IMG/VR virus record: IMGVR_UViG_3300025071_000055
Coordinates: 1-23,589 of that record
From: a virus
Strand: one strand, 5' to 3'
DNA: 23,589 nucleotides
In this document: positions 5,005-17,457 of the stretch, piece after piece
Numbering within the stretch: the stretch's first letter is position 1
Layout: each line of letters opens with the position of its first letter
Made by a program: the position numbers and the translations under genes
Notes under the pieces: model-generated
Database searches by the model: none
Told to the model about the DNA's origin: nothing
The model's input: only the letters and a program-made list of their open reading frames with translations

Positions 5005-5012
5005 CAAAGATA
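5005..5012 (-). promoter_or_regulatory. Bacteroidota-type -7 element for the 4985 minus gene
   Basis: The plus strand reads CAAAGATA, so the minus strand reads TATCTTTG, a perfect TAnnTTTG match, 19 nt before the minus-strand ATG. No TTG lies 20 nt upstream. The element overlaps the ung start codon (5012-5014). Confidence 0.5.
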
Positions 5013-5695
5013 TGGAAAATATTGAAATAAACATAATAAAACTCAGGGAAACACTGAATGCTAACCTGATAGAGAGTGATTGGCATAATATGTTATCACC
5101 ATATATAAACGGTCTTAACTTTGATATAATTGTTGACAATCTTGTAAAAGATGTGAATGAGGGTAGAAGATTTACACCAAGATTTAAAGACATTTTTAAT
5201 GCGTTCTATGAATGTCCTTATGGGGATACTAAAGTTGTAATAGTTGGTCAAGACCCTTATCCTCAATTAGGAGTTGCTGACGGAATAGCATTTAGTTGTA
5301 GTAGAAAAGGTAAAGCAGAAAAATCCCTGCAGTATATTAATAAAGCATTAGGAACTGATCATGTAGATCTTAGATGCTGGTCTAATCAAGGCGTACTTAT
5401 GATTAATACAGCATTTACTTGTGAGATAAACAAAATAGGCTCACACTATGGTAGATGGAAAAGCTTTACTGAATACTTATTTGAAAATATAAATAGACAT
5501 AAGTCTAAAACTATATTTATACTGATGGGTAAGAAAGCAGAAGAATGGCAAACTTTATTGCCAGACTGTATAATCCTTAAATGTCCACACCCAGCATCAG
5601 CTGCTTATAGAGGTGGTGAATGGGATTGTAAAGACGTATTTAATAAAACTAATGAAGAACTAACTAAACAAGGTAAAAGTTGTATAGATTGGTAA
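5012..5695 (+). CDS. ung: uracil-DNA glycosylase, family 1
   Basis: 227 residues, the normal family 1 length. It excises uracil from DNA by hydrolysing the N-glycosidic bond. Signature motifs are in order: water-activating loop GQDPYP (79-84, Asp81), GIAFS with the stacking Phe (91-95), LMINTAFT with the uracil-binding Asn (about 129-136), and HPAS (193-196) with the catalytic His, a variant of HPSPL. Conserved GRWKSFTEYL follows the NTAFT strand. The start at 5012 follows an A-rich leader and lies within 26 nt of the divergent gene. Phages use it in replication repair and to keep dU out of their genome. Confidence 0.95.
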   Translation: MENIEINIIKLRETLNANLIESDWHNMLSPYINGLNFDIIVDNLVKDVNEGRRFTPRFKDIFNAFYECPYGDTKVVIVGQDPYPQLGVADGIAFSCSRKGKAEKSLQYINKALGTDHVDLRCWSNQGVLMINTAFTCEINKIGSHYGRWKSFTEYLFENINRHKSKTIFILMGKKAEEWQTLLPDCIILKCPHPASAAYRGGEWDCKDVFNKTNEELTKQGKSCIDW

Positions 5696-8965: not shown

Positions 8966-9640
8966 ATGTTAAGTACTAAAGACATGTCTGCCGGATCAGG
9001 TGGAACTAAACCAGTAATTGGAACAGGTAATCACAAAGTGAAAATCAACTCAATTACATTTGATCAAACACCATATGATGCAGATGCATATAATATTACC
9101 CTGCATATAGAAGGTGAACCTGTAACAGGAGAGTTTAATGGTTTCTTAAAAGATATGAATAATCCTAATGGTCCACGTTATGAAGGTCAAGTAGGTAGAG
9201 TGAGATTCTCTCCATATCCATTTAAAGATGCTACATTAAATAATGGTAATGAGATCAGCCGTGATACTGAGGTATTGAAAGCAATGGTCTTCTTATCAGA
9301 AGTAGTAGGTAAAAGAACTGAGCTAGATGCTATTGAAGCAAATACAATTGAAGACTTTATGGTAAAAGCTGCAACTGTATGTTCAGAAACAGGTTGGATT
9401 AATGCATGCTTAGGTGCACGTGAGTGGGAAAACAAAGAAGGTTATGTAAATAATGATTTGTTCTTACCTAAGAGAAGCAGAAACGGAGTGCCATTGGAAG
9501 CTTTGGATACTGAAGGTTCTAGCTTGTTAACATTTGACAAAAATGATACTAACCACTTTAGACCTATGGTCCAAAAAGCTCCTACTGTAGCTACTAGCTT
9601 TGAGCCAGCAGTAACTAGTGGAGATGACTTTGATTTATAG
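8966..9640 (+). CDS. single-stranded DNA-binding protein (SSB-like)
   Basis: 224 residues. A beta-rich domain (HKVKINSITFDQTP, AYNITLHIEGEP, GRVRFSPYPF) is followed by a low-complexity linker and ends SGDDFDL, an acidic hydrophobic-tipped tail like the DDDIPF tail with which SSBs recruit partners. Position after a Sak4-like ATPase and before the primase supports an SSB role; Sak4 proteins are known to work with SSBs encoded nearby. The OB fold itself is inferred, not proven. The start follows the A-rich leader aaaaaaaagtaaatt. A strong terminator follows the stop. Confidence 0.75.
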   Translation: MLSTKDMSAGSGGTKPVIGTGNHKVKINSITFDQTPYDADAYNITLHIEGEPVTGEFNGFLKDMNNPNGPRYEGQVGRVRFSPYPFKDATLNNGNEISRDTEVLKAMVFLSEVVGKRTELDAIEANTIEDFMVKAATVCSETGWINACLGAREWENKEGYVNNDLFLPKRSRNGVPLEALDTEGSSLLTFDKNDTNHFRPMVQKAPTVATSFEPAVTSGDDFDL

Positions 9641-9658
9641 TTAGTAATTTGAAAAGAG

Positions 9659-9702
9659 TGGGCTCAGTATAATGCTGGGCCCATTTCTTTTTATTATTTT
9701 TG
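9659..9702 (+). terminator. rho-independent terminator after the SSB gene
   Basis: TGGGCTCAG (9659-9667) pairs with CTGGGCCCA (9675-9683) in a 9-bp stem with one G-U pair around a 7-nt loop (TATAATG). It is followed by T-rich TTTCTTTTTATTATTTTT. This closes the 5.7-9.6 kb transcription unit. Confidence 0.85.
9695..9702 (+). promoter_or_regulatory. possible -7 element before the primase gene
   Basis: TATTTTTG matches TAnnTTTG but lies only 4 nt before the primase ATG (9707) and has no TTG 20 nt upstream. It would imply a nearly leaderless transcript. It may simply be the U-tract of the terminator. Confidence 0.25.
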
Positions 9703-9706
9703 GAAT

Positions 9707-10684
9707 ATGTTTAATACTAAAAACTTTGTACTAGAAGGATCTGATATACCAAGTACGTGGGTTTTCCAATACTATCTAAACTTACCTGAAAAATTAACAG
9801 GACAAGACTTAAAGATTGTATCTATCTTTAATACCAATGAGAGAACACCAAGCTTTTGCATATATGTTGATAAAACTATTATGCAATATAAGTTTAAAGA
9901 TTTCTCTACTGGTAAAAGCGGCAATAAGATTGACTTAGTTAAATCAATATTTAACTTTGACTTTCCTACAGCAATGCAGAGGATGGTTAGAGATTACAAT
10001 GCTTACGTGAGATCATCAGAATATATTGAACAAAAATTTGAACCTCAATCCAAATGGGAAGTAGACCTTATTAAAGATAGGGCCTGGACCGTGGAGGATA
10101 AAGATTATTGGTTATCTTTTAGAATTGGTAAAACATTACTAAGTAATTATAATGTAAAGCCTATTGAATACTATAACTTAATAAAAGAACAAGAGGGAGA
10201 AATTAAAAAATTGAGAATTGCTAGCAAACATATGTACGGATACTTTGATAAGTATGGTGAAGTATATAAAATCTATCAACCTCATAGTAAGAAGCACAAG
10301 TTTCATAAAGTTAAACCTTATTTACAAGGGTTTGACCAGCTGAAATTTGATCAACCATACTTAGTAATATGTTCATCTCTTAAAGATGCTATGTGTTTAA
10401 AAGGTATGGGTTATAATTTAGAAGTATTAGCACCAGACAGTGAGAATACTATGATTAAACCTCATATAATTGAGCATCTTAAGAAAAAGTATAAAAAAAT
10501 AATAACTCTTTTTGATAATGATGATGCAGGCAAAGCAGCTATTAAAAAATATAGTGAGCTTTATAAACTAGATGGTATGGTATGTCCTACAGCTAAAGAT
10601 ATATCTGATGCTATGAAAAATTCTGGTTTTAAATTAGTGCATTTGATGATTCAACCTATATTAAAAAAGATTTTAAATAAATAA
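9707..10684 (+). CDS. divergent DnaG-type primase (TOPRIM)
   Basis: 325 residues. The N-terminal part (YKFKDFSTGKSGNKIDLVKSIF, 61-82) resembles the primase zinc-domain strand region 'f.d.stG..GdaidlV', but the zinc cysteines are absent. A TOPRIM domain follows at about 217-302: LVICSSLKDAMCLKGMG, then ITLFDNDDAG (266-275) with the DxD-type metal motif, then KDISDAM. The first TOPRIM glutamate (EG in most primases) is replaced by Ser223-Ser224. It would make RNA primers for lagging-strand synthesis. It begins a unit right after the terminator. Confidence 0.8.
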   Translation: MFNTKNFVLEGSDIPSTWVFQYYLNLPEKLTGQDLKIVSIFNTNERTPSFCIYVDKTIMQYKFKDFSTGKSGNKIDLVKSIFNFDFPTAMQRMVRDYNAYVRSSEYIEQKFEPQSKWEVDLIKDRAWTVEDKDYWLSFRIGKTLLSNYNVKPIEYYNLIKEQEGEIKKLRIASKHMYGYFDKYGEVYKIYQPHSKKHKFHKVKPYLQGFDQLKFDQPYLVICSSLKDAMCLKGMGYNLEVLAPDSENTMIKPHIIEHLKKKYKKIITLFDNDDAGKAAIKKYSELYKLDGMVCPTAKDISDAMKNSGFKLVHLMIQPILKKILNK

Positions 10685-10687
10685 ATT

Positions 10688-11011
10688 ATGGATTATTTTG
10701 AATTAGAATGTGCAGTTGAAAGCTGGGCAGAAGAAAAAGGTATCCTTGATAAAATTCAAGGACCAGATAAAGTAGCTTCACCAATGGCTCAAGCACTGAA
10801 GACACTAGAAGAAACAACTGAGCTTATACAAGCTATCAATAGTAATGACCATGCAGAGACCATTGATGCTATAGGTGATATAATGGTCACCTTGATTATT
10901 CAGGCTAAGATGCAAAATGTATCTTTAGAATACTGTCTTGAATCAGCTTATAATGTAATCTCAAAACGTACAGGTAAAATGATTAATGGTCAATTTGTAA
11001 AAGATAAATAA
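10688..11011 (+). CDS. MazG-like nucleoside triphosphate pyrophosphohydrolase
   Basis: 107 residues, a single all-alpha MazG domain. The metal-binding pattern KTLEETTEL (38-46; Glu41, Glu42, Glu45) and ETIDAIGD (57-64; Glu57, Asp60, Asp64) is the EExxE...ExxD motif of the family. It hydrolyses non-canonical or surplus (d)NTPs to monophosphates. In phages such enzymes adjust the nucleotide pool or lower ppGpp-type alarmones. It is placed 3 nt after the primase and 1 nt before the RusA-like gene, so it is co-transcribed with them. Confidence 0.85.
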   Translation: MDYFELECAVESWAEEKGILDKIQGPDKVASPMAQALKTLEETTELIQAINSNDHAETIDAIGDIMVTLIIQAKMQNVSLEYCLESAYNVISKRTGKMINGQFVKDK

Positions 11012-11012
11012 T

Positions 11013-11414
11013 ATGAGAAAAATAAGATGGTGGATACCAGGTAACGTTCCTAGCAGTAAAAATGGTAGGCGTTGGACAGGTAAATACTTTATTGCTAGCA
11101 AAGCTGTAATGAATTATAGAAAAGCTACTAAGGATATATATTTAAAATATACTAAGGATTTTAAGCAAGAACTAGAAAAGGTAGAATTACCAGTAAAAAT
11201 ATCTTTTGAATTTATCAGAGGAAGCCGCCATAAGTTTGACTATATAAATCCTGCACAGACAGTGCAAGATGATATGGTTAAGTATGGGTGGATTGAAGAT
11301 GACAATGCAGAGTTTATAATTCCTGCATTTGAACAATATACTTATGATAAAGAAAATCCAGGTGTGTGGATAGAATTAATAATTAATGAAAAAAAAGAAG
11401 ATAATATCAATTGA
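11013..11414 (+). CDS. RusA-like Holliday-junction resolvase
   Basis: 133 residues, close to RusA length. It starts with the diagnostic WIPGNVPSSKNGRR (7-20). The catalytic acidic cluster follows: FDYINPAQTVQDDM (75-88) and WIEDDNAEFI (93-102), matching the RusA pattern 'r.D.dN..k...D.L......i.DD'. The family cuts Holliday junctions as a dimer to resolve recombination or branched replication intermediates before packaging. Its end overlaps the next gene by 29 nt. Confidence 0.85.
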   Translation: MRKIRWWIPGNVPSSKNGRRWTGKYFIASKAVMNYRKATKDIYLKYTKDFKQELEKVELPVKISFEFIRGSRHKFDYINPAQTVQDDMVKYGWIEDDNAEFIIPAFEQYTYDKENPGVWIELIINEKKEDNIN

Positions 11415-11682
11415 TGAATTCTTTAGAATGAAAGAAATGTTTTCTGGATCATTAGAAGACAAAGAACTTGCATTTGAAATATACAACAATCAGTATACAG
11501 ATAGAAAGATACTTGATCTATTGATGCTAAAAGCATTAATGTTCAGTGACAGAAAAGCTTTTGCTGCTACTATAAAAGTAGATTTTACCGTAGGTAATGG
11601 TAAAAAATTATATACATTTTTATCATTGGAACAAGCTGATGATATTTATAAACAAATTTTAGATAAATTAATGGATGATTAA
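11386..11682 (+). CDS. unknown small helical protein
   Basis: 98 residues, starting inside the RusA-like gene and overlapping the VWA gene by 8 nt. The sequence (SIDEFFRMKEMFSGSLEDKELAFEIYNN...ILDLLMLKALMFSDRKAF) is helical with regular hydrophobic spacing, and the end (LEQADDIYKQILDKLMDD) is an acidic helix. No motif is recognised. The overlaps tie its expression to RusA upstream and to the MoxR/VWA block downstream; it could be an adaptor of either. Confidence 0.7.
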   Translation: MKKKKIISIDEFFRMKEMFSGSLEDKELAFEIYNNQYTDRKILDLLMLKALMFSDRKAFAATIKVDFTVGNGKKLYTFLSLEQADDIYKQILDKLMDD

Positions 11683-12838
11683 TATACAAGATCAGGTTGC
11701 AAGAACAACCAAAAGTTTAATATTTACTGAGCCCTTTTACGGGCTCTTTTTAATTGGTATCAATAAAAAGTATAGTGAGAACATTCCCACTGCAGGTGTA
11801 AGTAAACACAATATTGGTATACAATTGACTATAAACCCAGAGTTCTATAATGATCTCAGTGAAGACCATAGATTTGGTTTGATAAAACATGAGCTATTAC
11901 ATATAGCTTTTGGACATCTTATTTTAAGGGACCTATATACAGATCATAAGTTATTTAATATAGCTGCAGATTTGGAAATAAACCAGTACATACTGGAAAG
12001 CAAACTACCTACGGGTGGGCTGTTATTAAATAGTTTTCCTGAATTAAATCTTCCTACAAAAGCAGGTACCAAAAAGTATTATGAGCTTTTGGAACAGGCA
12101 AAAGAGGATGGAACATCTCCTTCATTAGATAATCTTATGAATCAAATGGATGGTACCAGTCAGTACTGTCATGGCACGTGGAATGATTTTGATGAACTGC
12201 CTGAAGCAGATAAAAAACTAATGCAAAAACAAATTGAGCATCAGTTAAAAGATTCTGCTGAACAAACAATCAAGAAAATGGGAACTATTCCGGGTGAATT
12301 AGCAGACCTTATACATAGACTTACTCATATTGAGCCAGCTAAATTTGATTGGAAAGGTTATTTAAAAAGGTTTGTTGGTAATTCAAGTATAGTATATACT
12401 AAGAAGCTCAGACGTAAGTATAACAAACGGTATGCTGCTAATCCAGGCCTTAAAATTAAGTTTAAGAATCATATTCTTGTTGGTGTTGACACAAGTGGGT
12501 CTGTAAATAATGATGAATTAAAAGAATTCTTTAATGAGTTAGCACATATGTGCAAAACTGGTCATAAAATTACAGTAGCACAATGTGATACAAAACTTAA
12601 TAGTGTGAAAGAGTTCAATCCTAAGCATGATTGGGAAATACATGGTAGAGGTGGGACTTCATTCCAACCTGTAATAGACCATTACAATGAAAAGAAAGGA
12701 GCTTATACAGCTCTAATATATTTAACAGATGGTGAAGCATATTCTCCTGATGACTGTCCTAAGAACACATTATGGGTTCACAGCAGTGTATCAGAAATAA
12801 ATGATGAATTACCAGGACAAAAAATCAAATTAAATTAA
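11675..12838 (+). CDS. VWA-like protein with HExxH metallopeptidase-like N-domain (DUF2201 type)
   Basis: 387 residues, two domains. The N-terminal domain holds KHELLHIAFGH (71-81), an HExxH zinc site, followed by NIAADLEINQYI, where the 'aADleiN' segment supplies the family's further conserved acids. The C-terminal VWA-like domain (about 265-387) has a complete MIDAS: DTSGS (272-276), GGTS with Thr328, and LTDGE with Asp352. This is the DUF2201 arrangement, usually encoded beside a MoxR AAA+ ATPase as it is here. The likely role is to bind a substrate through a metal and present it to the ATPase. A terminator hairpin lies inside codons 19-26. Confidence 0.85.
   Translation: MINIQDQVARTTKSLIFTEPFYGLFLIGINKKYSENIPTAGVSKHNIGIQLTINPEFYNDLSEDHRFGLIKHELLHIAFGHLILRDLYTDHKLFNIAADLEINQYILESKLPTGGLLLNSFPELNLPTKAGTKKYYELLEQAKEDGTSPSLDNLMNQMDGTSQYCHGTWNDFDELPEADKKLMQKQIEHQLKDSAEQTIKKMGTIPGELADLIHRLTHIEPAKFDWKGYLKRFVGNSSIVYTKKLRRKYNKRYAANPGLKIKFKNHILVGVDTSGSVNNDELKEFFNELAHMCKTGHKITVAQCDTKLNSVKEFNPKHDWEIHGRGGTSFQPVIDHYNEKKGAYTALIYLTDGEAYSPDDCPKNTLWVHSSVSEINDELPGQKIKLN
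11729..11751 (+). terminator. intragenic intrinsic terminator / attenuator
   Basis: GAGCCC (11729-11734), loop TTTTAC, GGGCTC (11741-11746), then TTTTT. This is a perfect 6-bp GC-rich stem and U-run in an otherwise AT-rich window. It lies 55 nt after the ATG of the VWA gene and is in frame with it (coding E-P-F-Y-G-L-F). It could act as an attenuator for the MoxR/VWA block. Confidence 0.6.
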
Positions 12839-12845
12839 TAAAACA

Positions 12846-14117
12846 ATGGCACAAGTAAATTTAAACGTTACAGAACTAAAAGGATTTGTAAATCACATAA
12901 TAAAAAATAATAGATTCCTACAAACAGAGGGTAAAAGTCCTGTATCAGTAGAAGTTGTAGGAGAATCAGGTATAGGTAAGACATCTACCATAGTAGAGCT
13001 TGCTCAGGATAATAATTTAAAGTTTGTTAAGCTAAACTTAGCACAGATAGAAGAGTTAGGTGACCTTGTTGGTTTCCCTGTACGTCAATTTCAAATGTAC
13101 AAAGAGAAGACAGTACCGGCTAAAAAATTAGATGATCTAAGTATGGTTACTGCTGCACAAAGAGCTGCAGGTAATAGTTTAGCTAATTTAAATACAACAA
13201 CTACTAAGAAAATTGGTATGTGGGTTGATGAACTAGCTGTACAAGAGTACCTAAAGAATGGATATAAAATGTCAGGTAAAAATAGAATGTCTTATTGTGC
13301 TCCTGAATGGATTGCTGATGCAAAAGAAGGTGGTATATTATTACTAGATGACTGGAACCGTGCTGATACAAGATTTATTCAGGCAGTTATGGAACTGATA
13401 GACCGTCAGACTTATATTTCATGGACATTACCAAAAGACTGGCACATAATTTTAACAGCAAACCCTGATAATGGAGATTATATGGTTAACAGTGTAGATA
13501 GTGCACAGAAGACTAGATATGTAACCGCTAACCTTAAGTTTGATGTTAATGTATGGGCACAATGGGCAGAGGGTGCAGGAATTGATACTAGATGTATTAA
13601 CTTCCTATTACTTCACCCAGAGTTAGTAACTCAAGAAACAAATGCAAGATCAATTACAACGTTCTTTAATGCTATATCTAGCTTTGAAAAGTTTGAAGAT
13701 AGTTTATCATTAATTCAAATGATTGGTGAAGGTAGTGTAGGAGATGAATTTGCTTCTATGTTTACTACATTTATTAATAATAAACTTGATAAACTAGTAA
13801 CACCTAAAGATTTATTGACTCATGATAATGAATCTTATATTCTTGGTGAACTAAGATCTTGTATTGGACAAGATGATACATACCGTGCAGATATTGCTGC
13901 AACCTTAGCAACTAGACTTGGTAATTATTCTGTAGTATATTCTAAAGAAAATACTATAGGGCAAAAGCAAACTGATAGATTAATCTCTCTCTGTACAAAA
14001 GATTATTTTACTAATGATCTTAAGTATTTAATTGTGAGAACAATCTTTAACGGAAATAAAAAGAAGTTTAATAAGATGATGATGAATCCAGACATTATCA
14101 AAATGACAATGAAATAA
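12846..14117 (+). CDS. MoxR-type AAA+ ATPase
   Basis: 423 residues. Walker A is GESGIGKTS (39-47), the MoxR-like ELGDLVGFP segment is at 70-78, Walker B is ILLLDDWNRAD (164-174), sensor 1 is ILTANPDN (202-209), and a candidate arginine finger lies in KTRYVT (222-227). The C-terminal 170 residues are helical lid and unknown. MoxR ATPases act as chaperone-like remodelers with VWA partners; the VWA gene ends 7 nt upstream. CobS-like cobaltochelatase subunits share this fold, but no CobN is seen. An insert at about 84-145 between Walker A and B is longer than in typical MoxR proteins. Confidence 0.85.
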   Translation: MAQVNLNVTELKGFVNHIIKNNRFLQTEGKSPVSVEVVGESGIGKTSTIVELAQDNNLKFVKLNLAQIEELGDLVGFPVRQFQMYKEKTVPAKKLDDLSMVTAAQRAAGNSLANLNTTTTKKIGMWVDELAVQEYLKNGYKMSGKNRMSYCAPEWIADAKEGGILLLDDWNRADTRFIQAVMELIDRQTYISWTLPKDWHIILTANPDNGDYMVNSVDSAQKTRYVTANLKFDVNVWAQWAEGAGIDTRCINFLLLHPELVTQETNARSITTFFNAISSFEKFEDSLSLIQMIGEGSVGDEFASMFTTFINNKLDKLVTPKDLLTHDNESYILGELRSCIGQDDTYRADIAATLATRLGNYSVVYSKENTIGQKQTDRLISLCTKDYFTNDLKYLIVRTIFNGNKKKFNKMMMNPDIIKMTMK

Positions 14118-14118
14118 A

Positions 14119-15171
14119 ATGGCAAATAAATCAGTATATCAAAACCTTGATCTTGCTGCTTTATCTTACTTTGATTTAGAGAGTGATACCATAAACGGTA
14201 TCCTCTCTTCTTCAAATGAGATAAATGAAGTGTTATGCACTGAAGATCAAACAACATATGAAAAAATACACAGTATATTAACGGTCCCTACAGAAGATGA
14301 CCAAACTTTTAGAACTAAAAAGAAAGCTTTTATATTACCTAAGTGTAGTGTATCACAAGATAGATTAAAAGCAGCTCTTAAAGAGCACGGTATTACTGTA
14401 ACTAATGATTATGAATTAGCAGACTTAATTATAGGTCATGATGAAATAGCACCATATGAGAAGTTAAGTAATGGAGATAACATACCCAGTACTCTTATGA
14501 TGGCAAAGTTATGGAATTATGAAACTACTAAAGGTAGAAGCACAGCTTGTCATCCTATGGAAATATCAATTTATAACTCAGGTATTCCAACTCTAATAAC
14601 TGGTAAGTTGACTGACAAAGTAAGATACTATGATTTAGATATAGAAAGTAGTGTATATGATGTGTGGATGATTACAGGTATGGCTTTAAACTTAGCACAT
14701 CTTATAGATACAACAGACTTAAGTGTAGTTGATCCTGAGACAGTGTTACATAGCTCAGCTAGTAAAATGGTTCTTGATGAACAATTGCTAGCAGATCTTA
14801 AAACTCAACTTAATTCTTATAGTGATGATAAAGCTATTGCTCTTAAGATTGTCCCTACTATTGACTATAAAAGAAACTATCATTTATTATGGCAGTTTGC
14901 ACAAGACTGTAATAGTATAACCTATGCAGATAATAGAGATAAAGATCTTCAGTATTGGTTAGAAGCTTCTGGATTTAAAAAGTTTGAAAGAAAAAGTGCT
15001 CAAGATATGATACTATGGTTAGAAGTAAATGATAAGTTATGTAAAACAACTTTTAGATATTTAGAACCTATAGTAAGAAGAGAAATAAGCATACATAATA
15101 GAGATCTTTATACATTTCAAGTAGCTGTAAAGAAAGAATATCAACAATATTTAAAAAAACAAGATGATTAG
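14119..15171 (+). CDS. unknown protein, paralog of the next gene (MoxR/VWA block)
   Basis: 350 residues, starting 1 nt after the MoxR stop. Residues 68-108 (KKAFILPKCSVSQDRLKAALKEHG...ADLIIGHDE) align by eye with 76-116 of the following protein and have a BRCT-like strand-helix-strand rhythm. A second shared region is LLADLKTQLNSYSDDKAIALKI (222-243). Between them lies a segment with TACHPMEISIYNSGIPTLIT. No catalytic motif is seen. Being locked to the MoxR and VWA genes, it is probably a substrate, adaptor or effector of that ATPase. Confidence is good for the gene and low for any function. Confidence 0.8.
   Translation: MANKSVYQNLDLAALSYFDLESDTINGILSSSNEINEVLCTEDQTTYEKIHSILTVPTEDDQTFRTKKKAFILPKCSVSQDRLKAALKEHGITVTNDYELADLIIGHDEIAPYEKLSNGDNIPSTLMMAKLWNYETTKGRSTACHPMEISIYNSGIPTLITGKLTDKVRYYDLDIESSVYDVWMITGMALNLAHLIDTTDLSVVDPETVLHSSASKMVLDEQLLADLKTQLNSYSDDKAIALKIVPTIDYKRNYHLLWQFAQDCNSITYADNRDKDLQYWLEASGFKKFERKSAQDMILWLEVNDKLCKTTFRYLEPIVRREISIHNRDLYTFQVAVKKEYQQYLKKQDD
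14178..14208 (+). other. strong hairpin in the 5' coding region
   Basis: AGAGAG-T-GATACC (14178-14190), loop ATAAAC, GGTATC-CTCTCT (14197-14208). This is a 12-bp stem interrupted only by one bulged T. It lies 60 nt into the gene at 14119. No U-run follows (TCTTC), so it is not a terminator; an RNA processing or translation-control element is possible. Confidence 0.45.
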
Positions 15172-16348
15172 AAAATTCAATTTAAGTATACAAGTAGATG
15201 AAAAAACTACTGTAACTAATAACAATAGCATAGTAAATAATAATAAAGTAACCACAAAACTATTGAGTAATGCATTTACTCTAGTAGAAGAAGGTGTATA
15301 TGTTGGTCAAACTAACAGTTGGCAAATAGAGAAAGAGTTAATAAAAGAAATCTTACCTCCGTCACCAGAAGTAATAGATGTACAAGATAAAAAGCTGTAC
15401 AGATGGCCACATTTAGATTTACCTAGACAAAAAGTTGATCTATTAAAAGAAAAGTTTAATTGTAAAATAACTAGATCTATAGATAAAGCTGACATAGAGG
15501 TAATATCTATTAATACAATGAGAAAGTTAATGGAAACTAATTGGTACCCCTCATATAATTACAGTGGTATGTATGATCTATTAAGCTTTCTTAAAAAGTC
15601 TGACTCTCTAACAGCAGATTCTTTATTAAAGTGTAAGGAACTGTTAGAAGGAATACCTAAAGACTCAAGAATACATATTAGTAAATCTTACTTTCATGGG
15701 AACTCAGTACATTTACTTGATGCTAATAGAATTATAGGTAATTATATAGAAGCTGAAAGGGATAAACTGAGAGATAATGGTGGTAGAGAAATACTAGTTA
15801 AAGGACAAGAGAACATAGATAAATATCATAGTATAATTAATACTTCATCTCAAATAGTATTTGATGTTGATATAAATAACTTAATTGATAAAGACTTAGC
15901 TGTTATTGAAAATACTGAATTAGAAAACATTGAACAAATGATTACTAGTTCAGATAGAGATAATAGATCCTTAGCCTTAGAAATGCTAGCAAATTGTAAT
16001 GTTAATGCTTCTTTTGATGTAGTTAGTAATATTTATTACTGGCAATATGACTGGTTAAAAGACACTAATAATTGGAATACAGTAAATGTTAAAGCACTGA
16101 GATCTAAAATGAAAGTCTTTGAAGGTGGTGGTAGTGTAAGCAACTGCTATAGCTACAATAATTATATCAAAAATTTGATACATCATGATAAATTAACTAA
16201 GTTTGCTATTGATAATACAAGAGAGAAAATGTATAAACACATTATGTCTCCTCTAGTAGGTAATGATAGAGAAGACACAGTGTTCCATGTATCTTTAGAA
16301 GCTCTTCAACTAAGAGATAACTTAATAGAAAACATTAATAATGACTAA
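15164..16348 (+). CDS. unknown protein, paralog of the previous gene (MoxR/VWA block)
   Basis: 394 residues, overlapping the previous gene by 8 nt. After an Asn-rich N-terminus it shares the KKLYRWPHLDLPRQKVDLLKEKF...ADIEVI region (76-116) with its neighbour. It also has a helical-repeat-like stretch ENIEQMITSSDRDNRSLALEMLANCNV (254-280) matching the neighbour's second shared region. The C-terminus (HVSLEALQLRDNLIENI) is helical. No enzymatic motif. Two tandem diverged copies beside MoxR and VWA genes suggest a heteromeric partner complex. Function unknown. Confidence 0.8.
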   Translation: MIRKFNLSIQVDEKTTVTNNNSIVNNNKVTTKLLSNAFTLVEEGVYVGQTNSWQIEKELIKEILPPSPEVIDVQDKKLYRWPHLDLPRQKVDLLKEKFNCKITRSIDKADIEVISINTMRKLMETNWYPSYNYSGMYDLLSFLKKSDSLTADSLLKCKELLEGIPKDSRIHISKSYFHGNSVHLLDANRIIGNYIEAERDKLRDNGGREILVKGQENIDKYHSIINTSSQIVFDVDINNLIDKDLAVIENTELENIEQMITSSDRDNRSLALEMLANCNVNASFDVVSNIYYWQYDWLKDTNNWNTVNVKALRSKMKVFEGGGSVSNCYSYNNYIKNLIHHDKLTKFAIDNTREKMYKHIMSPLVGNDREDTVFHVSLEALQLRDNLIENINND

Positions 16349-16481
16349 AAAAGATGATAGAAAAGCGTTGATAGAAACTATATTATTCTATAAAGAAAAA
16401 ATAAACCAGACACCCGGTGTTAAAGCAATGATACAGAAACTACAACAAAAATTAGATAAACTAGATGATAAAAACAAATAA
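16341..16481 (+). CDS. small basic helical protein (46 aa)
   Basis: ATG at 16341 overlaps the previous stop, and TAA at 16479-16481 overlaps the start of the nuclease gene by 17 nt. The product begins MTKKDDRKALIETILFYKEK and ends KLQQKLDKLDDKNK; it is a charged helix hairpin, probably partly coiled-coil. Overlaps on both sides and the lack of any other use for this stretch support a real gene. Its place between the MoxR block and the nuclease leaves its partner unclear. Confidence 0.5.
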   Translation: MTKKDDRKALIETILFYKEKINQTPGVKAMIQKLQQKLDKLDDKNK

Positions 16482-17457
16482 AGAAAAAGAAGAGAAGTTT
16501 TATGCAAATAAAGATTTTTGCTTTAGCTACTCTTCTTTGAATAAATTATTATTTTCACCATCCTTATTCTATAAGGACTATATATTACATGACCGTGAGG
16601 TCAGAACTGATAAACATTTAATTGAAGGTAAACTAATACACTGTCTCTTGTTTGAGGCAGGTGAAGTTAATAATAAATTTAATGTTGTACCAGGGAAAAG
16701 CCCAAGTGATAATATCAGAAAGGTATTAAAAGATATGGCTCTTCATACTGATGCAGAAACATTAGTAGATTGTGATGACTTTATCATACTAGATTCACTA
16801 AAGAATTTAAACCTATATCAATCTCTTAAAGCTGATGAGTCAAGAATAGCTAAGATAAGAACAGAAGACAATGAACCTTATTGGAAATTTGTTGGTAACA
16901 GTAATGTTGATGTAGTTGATCAAGATACTTTAGTGAGATGTACTGAGAGAGTAGAAATACTAAAAGAAAATAAAGATGTTATGTCATTGTTTAGTGAAGT
17001 AACAACTGATTTTGATTTAGATCCTATTGAAACATTTAGTGAGAAGTATCTTAAGTCTGAACTTAAAGGTTTAGATTTTGGCCTGCATGGATTTATAGAT
17101 TATTATAAGGTTGATAGTGATAAAAAGCAAGTAACCATATGTGATCTTAAGACAACTGGGAAGACAATCTCAGACTTTAAAGACACTGTAGACTTTTATA
17201 ATTACTGGTTACAAGCTTCTATTTATATGAAGTTAGTGTATGATACCTTGGGTGATGATGCTGATGATTATGAATTAATGTTTAAGTTTGTTGTAATTGA
17301 TACATATGATCAAGTATATGTCTTTGATGTATCTAGAGAAACTATGGGTGGATGGGCTGATGGCCTTGGAGGTGCAATTAAAACTGCTGAATTCCATTAT
17401 AAAAGTAGAAATTACTCATTGCCTATTGAATTTTTATCAAAAAAGGTTACCTTATAG
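16465..17457 (+). CDS. PD-(D/E)XK exonuclease (RecB/Cas4-like)
   Basis: 330 residues. SYSSLNKLLFSPSLFYKDY (21-39) is the typical N-terminal 'S.S.l..l..sP..f' motif. GKLIHCLLFE (55-64) contributes His59, GFIDYY contributes Asp212, CDLKTTG (226-232) gives the DxK pair Asp227/Lys229, and QASIY (250-254) is the QxxxY motif. This is the RecB-like/Cas4-like nuclease family (DUF3799-like in phages), acting as a 5'-3' exonuclease in recombination with annealing ATPases such as the Sak4-like protein at 8255. It starts inside the 3' end of the preceding small ORF. Confidence 0.87.
   Translation: MIKTNKEKEEKFYANKDFCFSYSSLNKLLFSPSLFYKDYILHDREVRTDKHLIEGKLIHCLLFEAGEVNNKFNVVPGKSPSDNIRKVLKDMALHTDAETLVDCDDFIILDSLKNLNLYQSLKADESRIAKIRTEDNEPYWKFVGNSNVDVVDQDTLVRCTERVEILKENKDVMSLFSEVTTDFDLDPIETFSEKYLKSELKGLDFGLHGFIDYYKVDSDKKQVTICDLKTTGKTISDFKDTVDFYNYWLQASIYMKLVYDTLGDDADDYELMFKFVVIDTYDQVYVFDVSRETMGGWADGLGGAIKTAEFHYKSRNYSLPIEFLSKKVTL

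Follow-up and report, generated by a model that had tools for sequence, protein, structure and literature searches.

What task could require a phage to keep a MoxR-type ATPase, a von Willebrand factor A (VWA) protein, and two large proteins of no recognized family side by side among its replication genes? The question is raised by a stretch of viral DNA of 23,589 nucleotides (IMG/VR record IMGVR_UViG_3300025071_000055, positions 1–23,589; hereafter the window), in which four genes of the + strand encode a VWA protein (11675–12838, 387 aa), a MoxR-like AAA+ ATPase (12846–14117, 423 aa), protein C (14119–15171, 350 aa), and protein D (15164–16348, 394 aa). The open reading frame (ORF) coordinates agree with those of an earlier reading of the window (the first-pass annotation), with spacings of 7 nt between VWA and MoxR and 1 nt between MoxR and C and an 8-nt overlap between C and D. 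Here, we tentatively propose, at slightly less than even confidence, that the block is a phage-specific MoxR/VWA remodeling machine belonging to a replication/recombination operon, with the BRCT-like proteins C and D as its adaptors or clients. The composition of the block is observed, whereas we infer the link between the machine and its partners and the target on which it acts.

The VWA protein consists of an N-terminal zincin-like domain (DUF2201_N, E 8.6e-19) and a C-terminal VWA domain (DUF2201, E 3.2e-15), with bit scores above the curated Pfam cut-offs (68.6 versus 23.2 and 56.8 versus 26.4, respectively). The HELLH zinc site (residues 72–76; 11888–11902, + strand) and the complete metal ion-dependent adhesion site (MIDAS; DTSGS at residues 272–276, 12488–12502, + strand, completed by T328 and D352), both pointed out in the first-pass annotation, are confirmed by conservation. 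In an alignment from which fragments and one broken copy were excluded by length, none of the 89 distinct full-length sequences, that of the window included, deviates in the HExxH motif, H81, D99, or any MIDAS residue. In the broken copy (locus L034, 5539–6718), the VWA frame is split into three pieces, by either an assembly error or decay. H72, E73, H76, H81, and D99 are the candidate zinc-site residues. Their invariance, together with the conserved C-terminal tail of C (mean identity 0.77), would suit a processing protease, in which the zincin is the working end, C and D are its substrates or inhibitors, and MoxR merely presents them; however, a zinc site can be structural, and a section of a jumbo-phage review describes a viral MoxR–vWA system that has no peptidase domain (PMC7824862), so that we consider this explanation quite improbable. 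PHROG 1314 and several phage records name the VWA family "HNH endonuclease." Because Pfam contradicts this name with a metallopeptidase and a VWA domain, it is probably a propagated mislabel.

The ATPase matches PHROG 1297 (E 2.4e-34), and its score against Pfam AAA_5 (21.1 bits) lies slightly under the cut-off of 22. A hidden Markov model (HMM) of its family matches the MoxR proteins of S-TIM5, Salmonella SP-076, AR9, Alteromonas, and Moorella phages (E 2e-15 to 4e-8); the Thermus phiFa ATPase is reached at E 0.055 only. The motif residues were assigned by eye from the motif pattern. Walker A (GESGIGKT, 12960–12983, + strand), sensor 1, the Arg finger, and sensor 2 are invariant in all 82 distinct full-length MoxR sequences, in line with the MoxR assignment of the first-pass annotation. 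In Walker B (LLLDD, 13338–13352, + strand), an Asp (D169) replaces the usual catalytic Glu: the DD pair is found in 81 of the 82 sequences, with a gap in the other, whereas Glu occupies this position in all six other phage ATPases examined, among them that of an N4-like Salmonella phage. The protein is therefore a MoxR-like ATPase whose catalytic residue is changed, and judging from this substitution, it is possibly a slow or switch-like enzyme.

Linkage of the four genes was examined in five scans of IMG/VR viral contigs, which gave 250 overlapping loci, several per contig. Because three of the scans took the best 80 of 201, of at least 505, and of 266 confirmed relatives, and because the loci were drawn by the block's own proteins (C, D, or VWA), the census is a sample in which close relatives are overrepresented. 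All four genes, in the order VWA–MoxR–C–D, are present in 215 of the 250 loci, and in 34 of the 35 incomplete ones the contig ends within 76 nt on the side of the missing gene; the last (L122) has 338 nt on that side, which read as another open frame. The 208 loci with one ORF per gene correspond to 96 distinct protein quadruples, and their median intergenic distances are 8, 1, and −4 nt (largest 429, 119, and 10 nt). In a bacterial genome collection, three loci encode C, and all three have VWA, MoxR, C, and D as well as the primase and RusA genes. The check proposed in the first-pass annotation, co-occurrence of the four genes in relatives, thus came out in its favor, and the contrary outcome that it had named, partners without MoxR/VWA in most relatives, was not found among the loci seen. 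Since C and D are not seen apart from the pair in complete loci, they are the obvious candidates for clients or adaptors. By sequence, the collections searched contained no relatives of C or D from beyond this phage group, and tblastn at E 0.1 gave no match to either among 50,697 phage records.

The setting points to the possible target. In the loci listed, the genes form the string primase–RusA–98-aa gene–VWA–MoxR–C–D–nuclease, although the 98-aa gene is not always detected. The string opens with a DnaG-type primase (9707–10684, + strand; PHROG 12622), whose HMM matches gp80 of crAss001 and gp47 of Cellulophaga phage phi14:2, both members of Crassvirales. The RusA-like Holliday junction resolvase (11013–11414, + strand; phi14:2 gp55, 157 bits) precedes the 98-aa gene, and 116 nt past D begins a PD-(D/E)XK/exonuclease VIII-like nuclease (16465–17457, + strand; crAss001 gp70, 52 bits), which in locus L058 lies ~2 kb further on. 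Identity to the window was taken from 82 loci with distinct MoxR, after rows outside the length and coverage limits were dropped. The medians are 0.92 for DnaB (56 loci), 0.89 for MoxR (82), 0.89 for Sak4 (79), 0.84 for VWA (79), 0.80 for DNA polymerase (51), 0.75 for C (77), 0.68 for the nuclease (65), 0.67 for the primase (79), 0.48 for the 98-aa gene (74), and 0.42 for D (73), those of VWA, C, and D being inflated because the loci were picked by similarity to them. The conservation of MoxR, close to that of the replicative helicase DnaB, and the position between the Holliday resolvase and the nuclease together suggest replication or recombination as the target.

The same figures bear on the idea that the machine serves host takeover or counter-defense, removing or destroying the host RNA polymerase, the replisome, or a defense ATPase, while the variable D reads the target. 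D is indeed the most divergent protein of the block, with a very variable N terminus (mean identity 0.24) and an insertion at 0.21, and the gene sets between the primase and the uracil-DNA glycosylase in crAss001 and phi14:2 (JAB/E1-like and GGCT/ATP-grasp/GFAT, respectively) could also act on proteins. However, MoxR, VWA, and C are well conserved, unlike patchy anti-defense genes, and, except for L122, no locus with room for these three lacked them. All that PADLOC gave was a weak match of the MoxR P-loop region to BrxF (E 0.009). Conservation near that of a replicative helicase argues against a fast-evolving anti-defense device in the case of MoxR and VWA, whereas D is fast-evolving; on balance, we regard a role against the host as unlikely.

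The pair itself is not new. The statement in the first-pass annotation that this is not a standard phage module is not supported in this respect, as a VWA relative was found at 1e-5 in 314 of the 50,697 phage records. In N4 (Schitoviridae), the VWA HMM matches gp25 (E 9e-21) and the MoxR HMM matches gp24 (E 1.8e-6; 7-kb search set); the gene order is reversed there, and no match to C or D was found in the 7 kb examined. An excerpt of a comparative study lists gp24 and gp25, of unknown function, as two of the 14 core genes of 25 N4-like phages (PMC4193335). The group 2.2 jumbo phages, and also AR9/PBS1, have a metallopeptidase fused to VWA with a MoxR neighbor. This pair is already named in a section of the jumbo-phage review, which explicitly proposes for it a function in virion assembly (PMC7824862). 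Transferred to the window, and by analogy with the two-tailed archaeal virus, this would mean a chaperone/protease that builds and trims the particle, and the pair of S-TIM5 does adjoin a gene annotated as virion structural and packaging. In N4, by contrast, gp24 and gp25 adjoin a dCTP deaminase, not annotated structural genes, and here the pair is locked in a replication operon between primase, resolvase, and nuclease genes, with partners that look BRCT-like; a role in virion assembly is accordingly rather unlikely in our estimation. As the pair is described in N4-like and jumbo phages, the new part is the partner set and the setting.

The partners had been said to resemble each other. BLASTP does not bear this out (E 1.4), and with the thresholds applied, neither C nor D of the window is assigned to a family by Pfam, PHROG, NCBIfam, or PADLOC. 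When all C and D members were scanned at E ≤ 1, only scattered weak families appeared, the best for C being a PHROG of unknown function (E 0.0015, 2 of 30 members). Profile comparison and predicted structures, on the other hand, do favor the resemblance. For hhalign, each of C and D served in turn as query and as target against 26 families of the phage, as they did against each other (106 comparisons). Whether ranked by score or by probability, the first six places are taken by the six pairings within the set of C, D, and the 98-aa family (scores 24.9–30.6), whereas the remaining 100 score at most 23.0, and two reversed controls gave 21.3 and 20.4. The C–D scores are 30.6 and 27.0, and C–D ranks first only by raw score with C as the query. 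The 98-aa protein (11386–11682, + strand), which overlaps VWA by 8 nt, scores 29.1 against D (E 0.0011, or 4.3e-4 with first-row columns), and in 230 of the 239 loci where this could be tested, its HMM matches directly upstream of VWA. As judged from these profiles, the helical stretch of C and D may recur in it, possibly as a stand-alone copy.

AlphaFold modeled D with a predicted local distance difference test (pLDDT) score of 86 and C with 80 in the best model, the five models of C spanning 80 to 59.5. Among predicted viral structures (BFVD), the C and D models each match four at E ≤ 0.001, and these are the same four proteins, including two from phage ctz6O13, one from the crAss-like virus ctYsL76, and A0A6J5LXR8. 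In the comparison with PDB chains (VIA-align), many BRCT domains aligned to both, covering residues 62–216 of C (14302–14766, + strand; Z up to 5.7) and 72–246 of D (15377–15901, + strand; Z up to 7.0). About 60–88 residues are aligned, spread over a longer range, which describes a BRCT-like fold opened by an insertion (~109–170 in C and ~129–205 in D). Mean identity to the window for the first part, insertion, and second part is 0.85, 0.52, and 0.70 in C and 0.57, 0.21, and 0.34 in D. The predicted fold thus resembles the BRCT domains of PARP1, XRCC1, BRCA1, and RFC1, from which C and D differ by the split of ~60–80 residues and by having no family-level sequence match. The helices that follow, residues 217–300 of C (14767–15018, + strand; AlphaFold and VIA-align) and 247–322 of D (15902–16129, + strand), match HEAT/armadillo-type repeats. 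The latter stretch is the most conserved part of D (mean identity 0.63), and the variation of D is concentrated in the N terminus and the BRCT insertion. In the first BRCT part of D, R80, R88, K90, K95, K97, K101, and R104 are Lys or Arg in at least 95% of 86 sequences; five positions of C satisfy the same limit in 84 sequences (K68, K69, R82, K84, and K88). RFC subunits and ketol-acid reductoisomerases were also considered for the fold of D and were rejected for their poor TM (template modeling) scores. The profile ranking, the common structure matches, and the BRCT-then-HEAT layout indicate that C and D are likely distant paralogs, D being the fast-evolving one. Taken with the linkage, this supports the earlier description of a block inside the replication arm of a phage whose dedicated partners lack a known family; the paralogy of the partners is probable, and the block is fixed in the loci seen.

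How might such a set of proteins work? The same combination of a MoxR AAA+ protein and a MIDAS-bearing VWA partner is found in NorQ–NorD, RavA–ViaA, and CbbQ–CbbO, and by analogy the working principle is likely the same. The clients of those systems are respiratory enzymes or rubisco, whereas no such client was recognized in the window. Of the PDB sequences, the one nearest to the MoxR profile is that of midasin (Rea1/Mdn1; E 1.1e-7, residues 31–76 only), which removes assembly factors from preribosomes via its MIDAS; it differs in being a single giant eukaryotic chain with ribosomal clients. In our proposal, MoxR would form a hexamer on which the VWA protein sits, and the MIDAS would grip an acidic residue, located on C, on D, or on a complex that the two hold. 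Such a grip has been proposed for NorD on NorB: in the relevant section of that study, the acidic residue to which the NorD MIDAS binds is likely one of the client, not of NorQ, and the model has the VWA domain plugging the MoxR ring (PMC9976466). The BRCT-like part of C and D, with its basic patch, would recognize either a partner or DNA at its ends or nicks, and contact with the machine would be made by the helical part. ATP hydrolysis could then pull apart or load a replication or recombination complex, for which DnaB–primase, Sak4 on single-stranded DNA, and the nuclease are candidates; the zincin would possibly clip what is pulled out, and D, with its variable insert, may set the specificity. 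The full version of this scheme is a remodeler of the replisome or of recombination, in which a duplicated pair of split-BRCT/HEAT adaptors and a HEAT-only third subunit direct a MoxR/VWA motor with a protease-like arm to DNA ends or nicks, the client being a DNA transaction complex. In this detailed form, we consider the proposal possible but doubtful. NorQD has also been described, in a part of the same study, as putting iron into its client (PMC9976466), and this suggests a cofactor-insertion chaperone for a phage metalloenzyme such as ribonucleotide reductase, with C and D as unrelated passengers of the operon. However, no cofactor-dependent metalloenzyme was recognized among the 20 window proteins scanned, several of which have no family match, and in complete loci C and D are not separated from the pair; cofactor insertion is, in our judgment, very improbable.

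Several results weigh against the proposed remodeling machine with BRCT-like partners. The HHalign probabilities between C and D are low (3–27%: 15%, 27%, 9.8%, 3.4%, and 4.3%), so that their paralogy rests on the fold and the ranking. The BRCT matches have Z scores of 4–7, below the value of 8 under which the tool advises caution; since chance arrangements occur in this range, "BRCT-like" is a prediction. Foldseek of the D model against the PDB gave nothing at E ≤ 1e-3 (D only). Pfam BRCT was reached by 4 of 30 C sequences at E ≤ 1, with the best (0.051) under the cut-off, and it is not among the families listed for D members in the scan at E ≤ 1. Other phages carry the VWA/MoxR pair without a C or D recognizable by tblastn at E 0.1. 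In a low-sensitivity test with single sequences of at least 120 aa, no C/D-like neighbor of VWA stood out in eight other phages (Moorella, Alteromonas, S-TIM5, Salmonella SP-076, MinM2, AR9, Vibrio Va1, and Thermus phages; 246 comparisons, best score 24.1 versus 27.6 for D–C and 30.8 for D–98-aa as controls). The comparison of distance trees is mixed as well. Among the ten string genes in 59 loci, the distances of C have their highest rank correlation with those of VWA (0.65), and in a trimmed set of 46 loci C–VWA (0.51) is followed by C–D (0.47). C–VWA exceeds C–MoxR (trimmed bootstrap 0.08 to 0.34), although MoxR sits between C and VWA, but it is not clearly above C–D. VWA correlates equally with the primase, the 98-aa gene, and MoxR (0.52, trimmed set), and D correlates best with the primase (0.52–0.53), not with C. 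As a test of interaction, this comparison is weak. The inflation of the VWA, C, and D identities by the choice of loci has to be counted here, too.

A third component beside vWA and MoxR is also a feature of the VMAP/iSTAND ternary conflict systems, which, in the sections of their description concerned, belong to cellular genomes and have variable effector domains fused after the vWA domain (PMC7159879). The VWA protein of the window is strongly conserved and ends with its VWA domain: the DUF2201 domains reach residue 375 of 387 in Pfam, and nothing is fused after them. As to a third component of the VMAP-C type, the absence of matches for C and D refers to the four family collections named above, and no VMAP-C model was compared. 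In the open-licence PMC literature, with subscription journals mostly outside this scope, we found no article joining BRCT, phage, VWA, and AAA+, or crAss-like phages and MoxR. The MoxR–VWA pair recurs in N4-like phages, as core genes, and in some jumbo phages without a known job, and a phage group with the pair fixed in a replication operon beside two partners gives concrete candidates for the client or adaptor. If the BRCT assignment is true, the range of MoxR/VWA machines, so far metalloenzymes and rubisco, would come to include DNA replication or recombination, and a split BRCT-like fold would enter phage replication.

Judged from its terminase (TerL), portal, and replication genes, the source phage is a marine Crassvirales-like virus. 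As the window covers 23.6 kb of the replication arm, TerL and the portal were tested on relatives, whose contigs reach 118 kb. Of the group's 16 long contigs, 11 are matched by the crAss001 TerL, and all 11 of these also by the portal (23–26% identity); with a single crAss001 sequence as the query, the crAss-type major capsid protein was found in none of the 11. HMMs of window genes match the helicase, uracil-DNA glycosylase (5012–5695 in the window), Sak4, primase, and nuclease in both crAss001 and phi14:2, and phi14:2 is additionally matched by the RusA, 17474-gene, and DNA polymerase HMMs. In the pieces of the two phages examined, the DnaB HMM had no match, and the VWA, MoxR, C, and D HMMs gave nothing at E 0.01. 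A passage of a 2021 crAss survey gives primase, DnaB, SNF2 helicase, and one AAA ATPase as the conserved replication genes, and MoxR/VWA are not named in it (PMC7886860).

The interval between the primase and the uracil-DNA glycosylase holds other gene sets in these two phages. In crAss001 (30582–35065 of locus L261, gp75–gp78), Pfam assigns gp76 to ThiF/E1 and matches JAB in gp77 only weakly, below the cut-off (E 4.9e-4), with nothing for gp78. The idea that gp77 and gp78, annotated as "metalloprotease" and hypothetical, correspond to VWA and MoxR proved wrong, and neither HMM had a match in the crAss001 piece examined. In phi14:2 (22025–27669 of locus L269, gp48–gp52), the interval contains GGCT, ATP-grasp, and GFAT genes by annotation. 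The window block occupies the same primase-to-nuclease stretch, but after RusA, and this stretch may be a slot for protein-modifying or remodeling modules. Between the primase and RusA lies a MazG-like gene (10688–11011), which is elsewhere or undetected in many relatives and thus has a mobile position. Before the primase, a 224-aa protein (8966–9640) without a PHROG or NCBIfam match is present in 79 of 82 loci with a median identity of 0.76. A scan for sigma-70-like promoters was uninformative (48 versus 53 expected by shuffling). Terminator-like hairpins are frequent between 9600 and 18600 (13 versus 2.2 expected), including a 14-pair stem before the primase (9656–9686) and one inside the start of VWA (11729–11746). 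Further upstream, a tRNA-Arg gene (anticodon tct, 2307–2381) lies ahead of the helicase gene.

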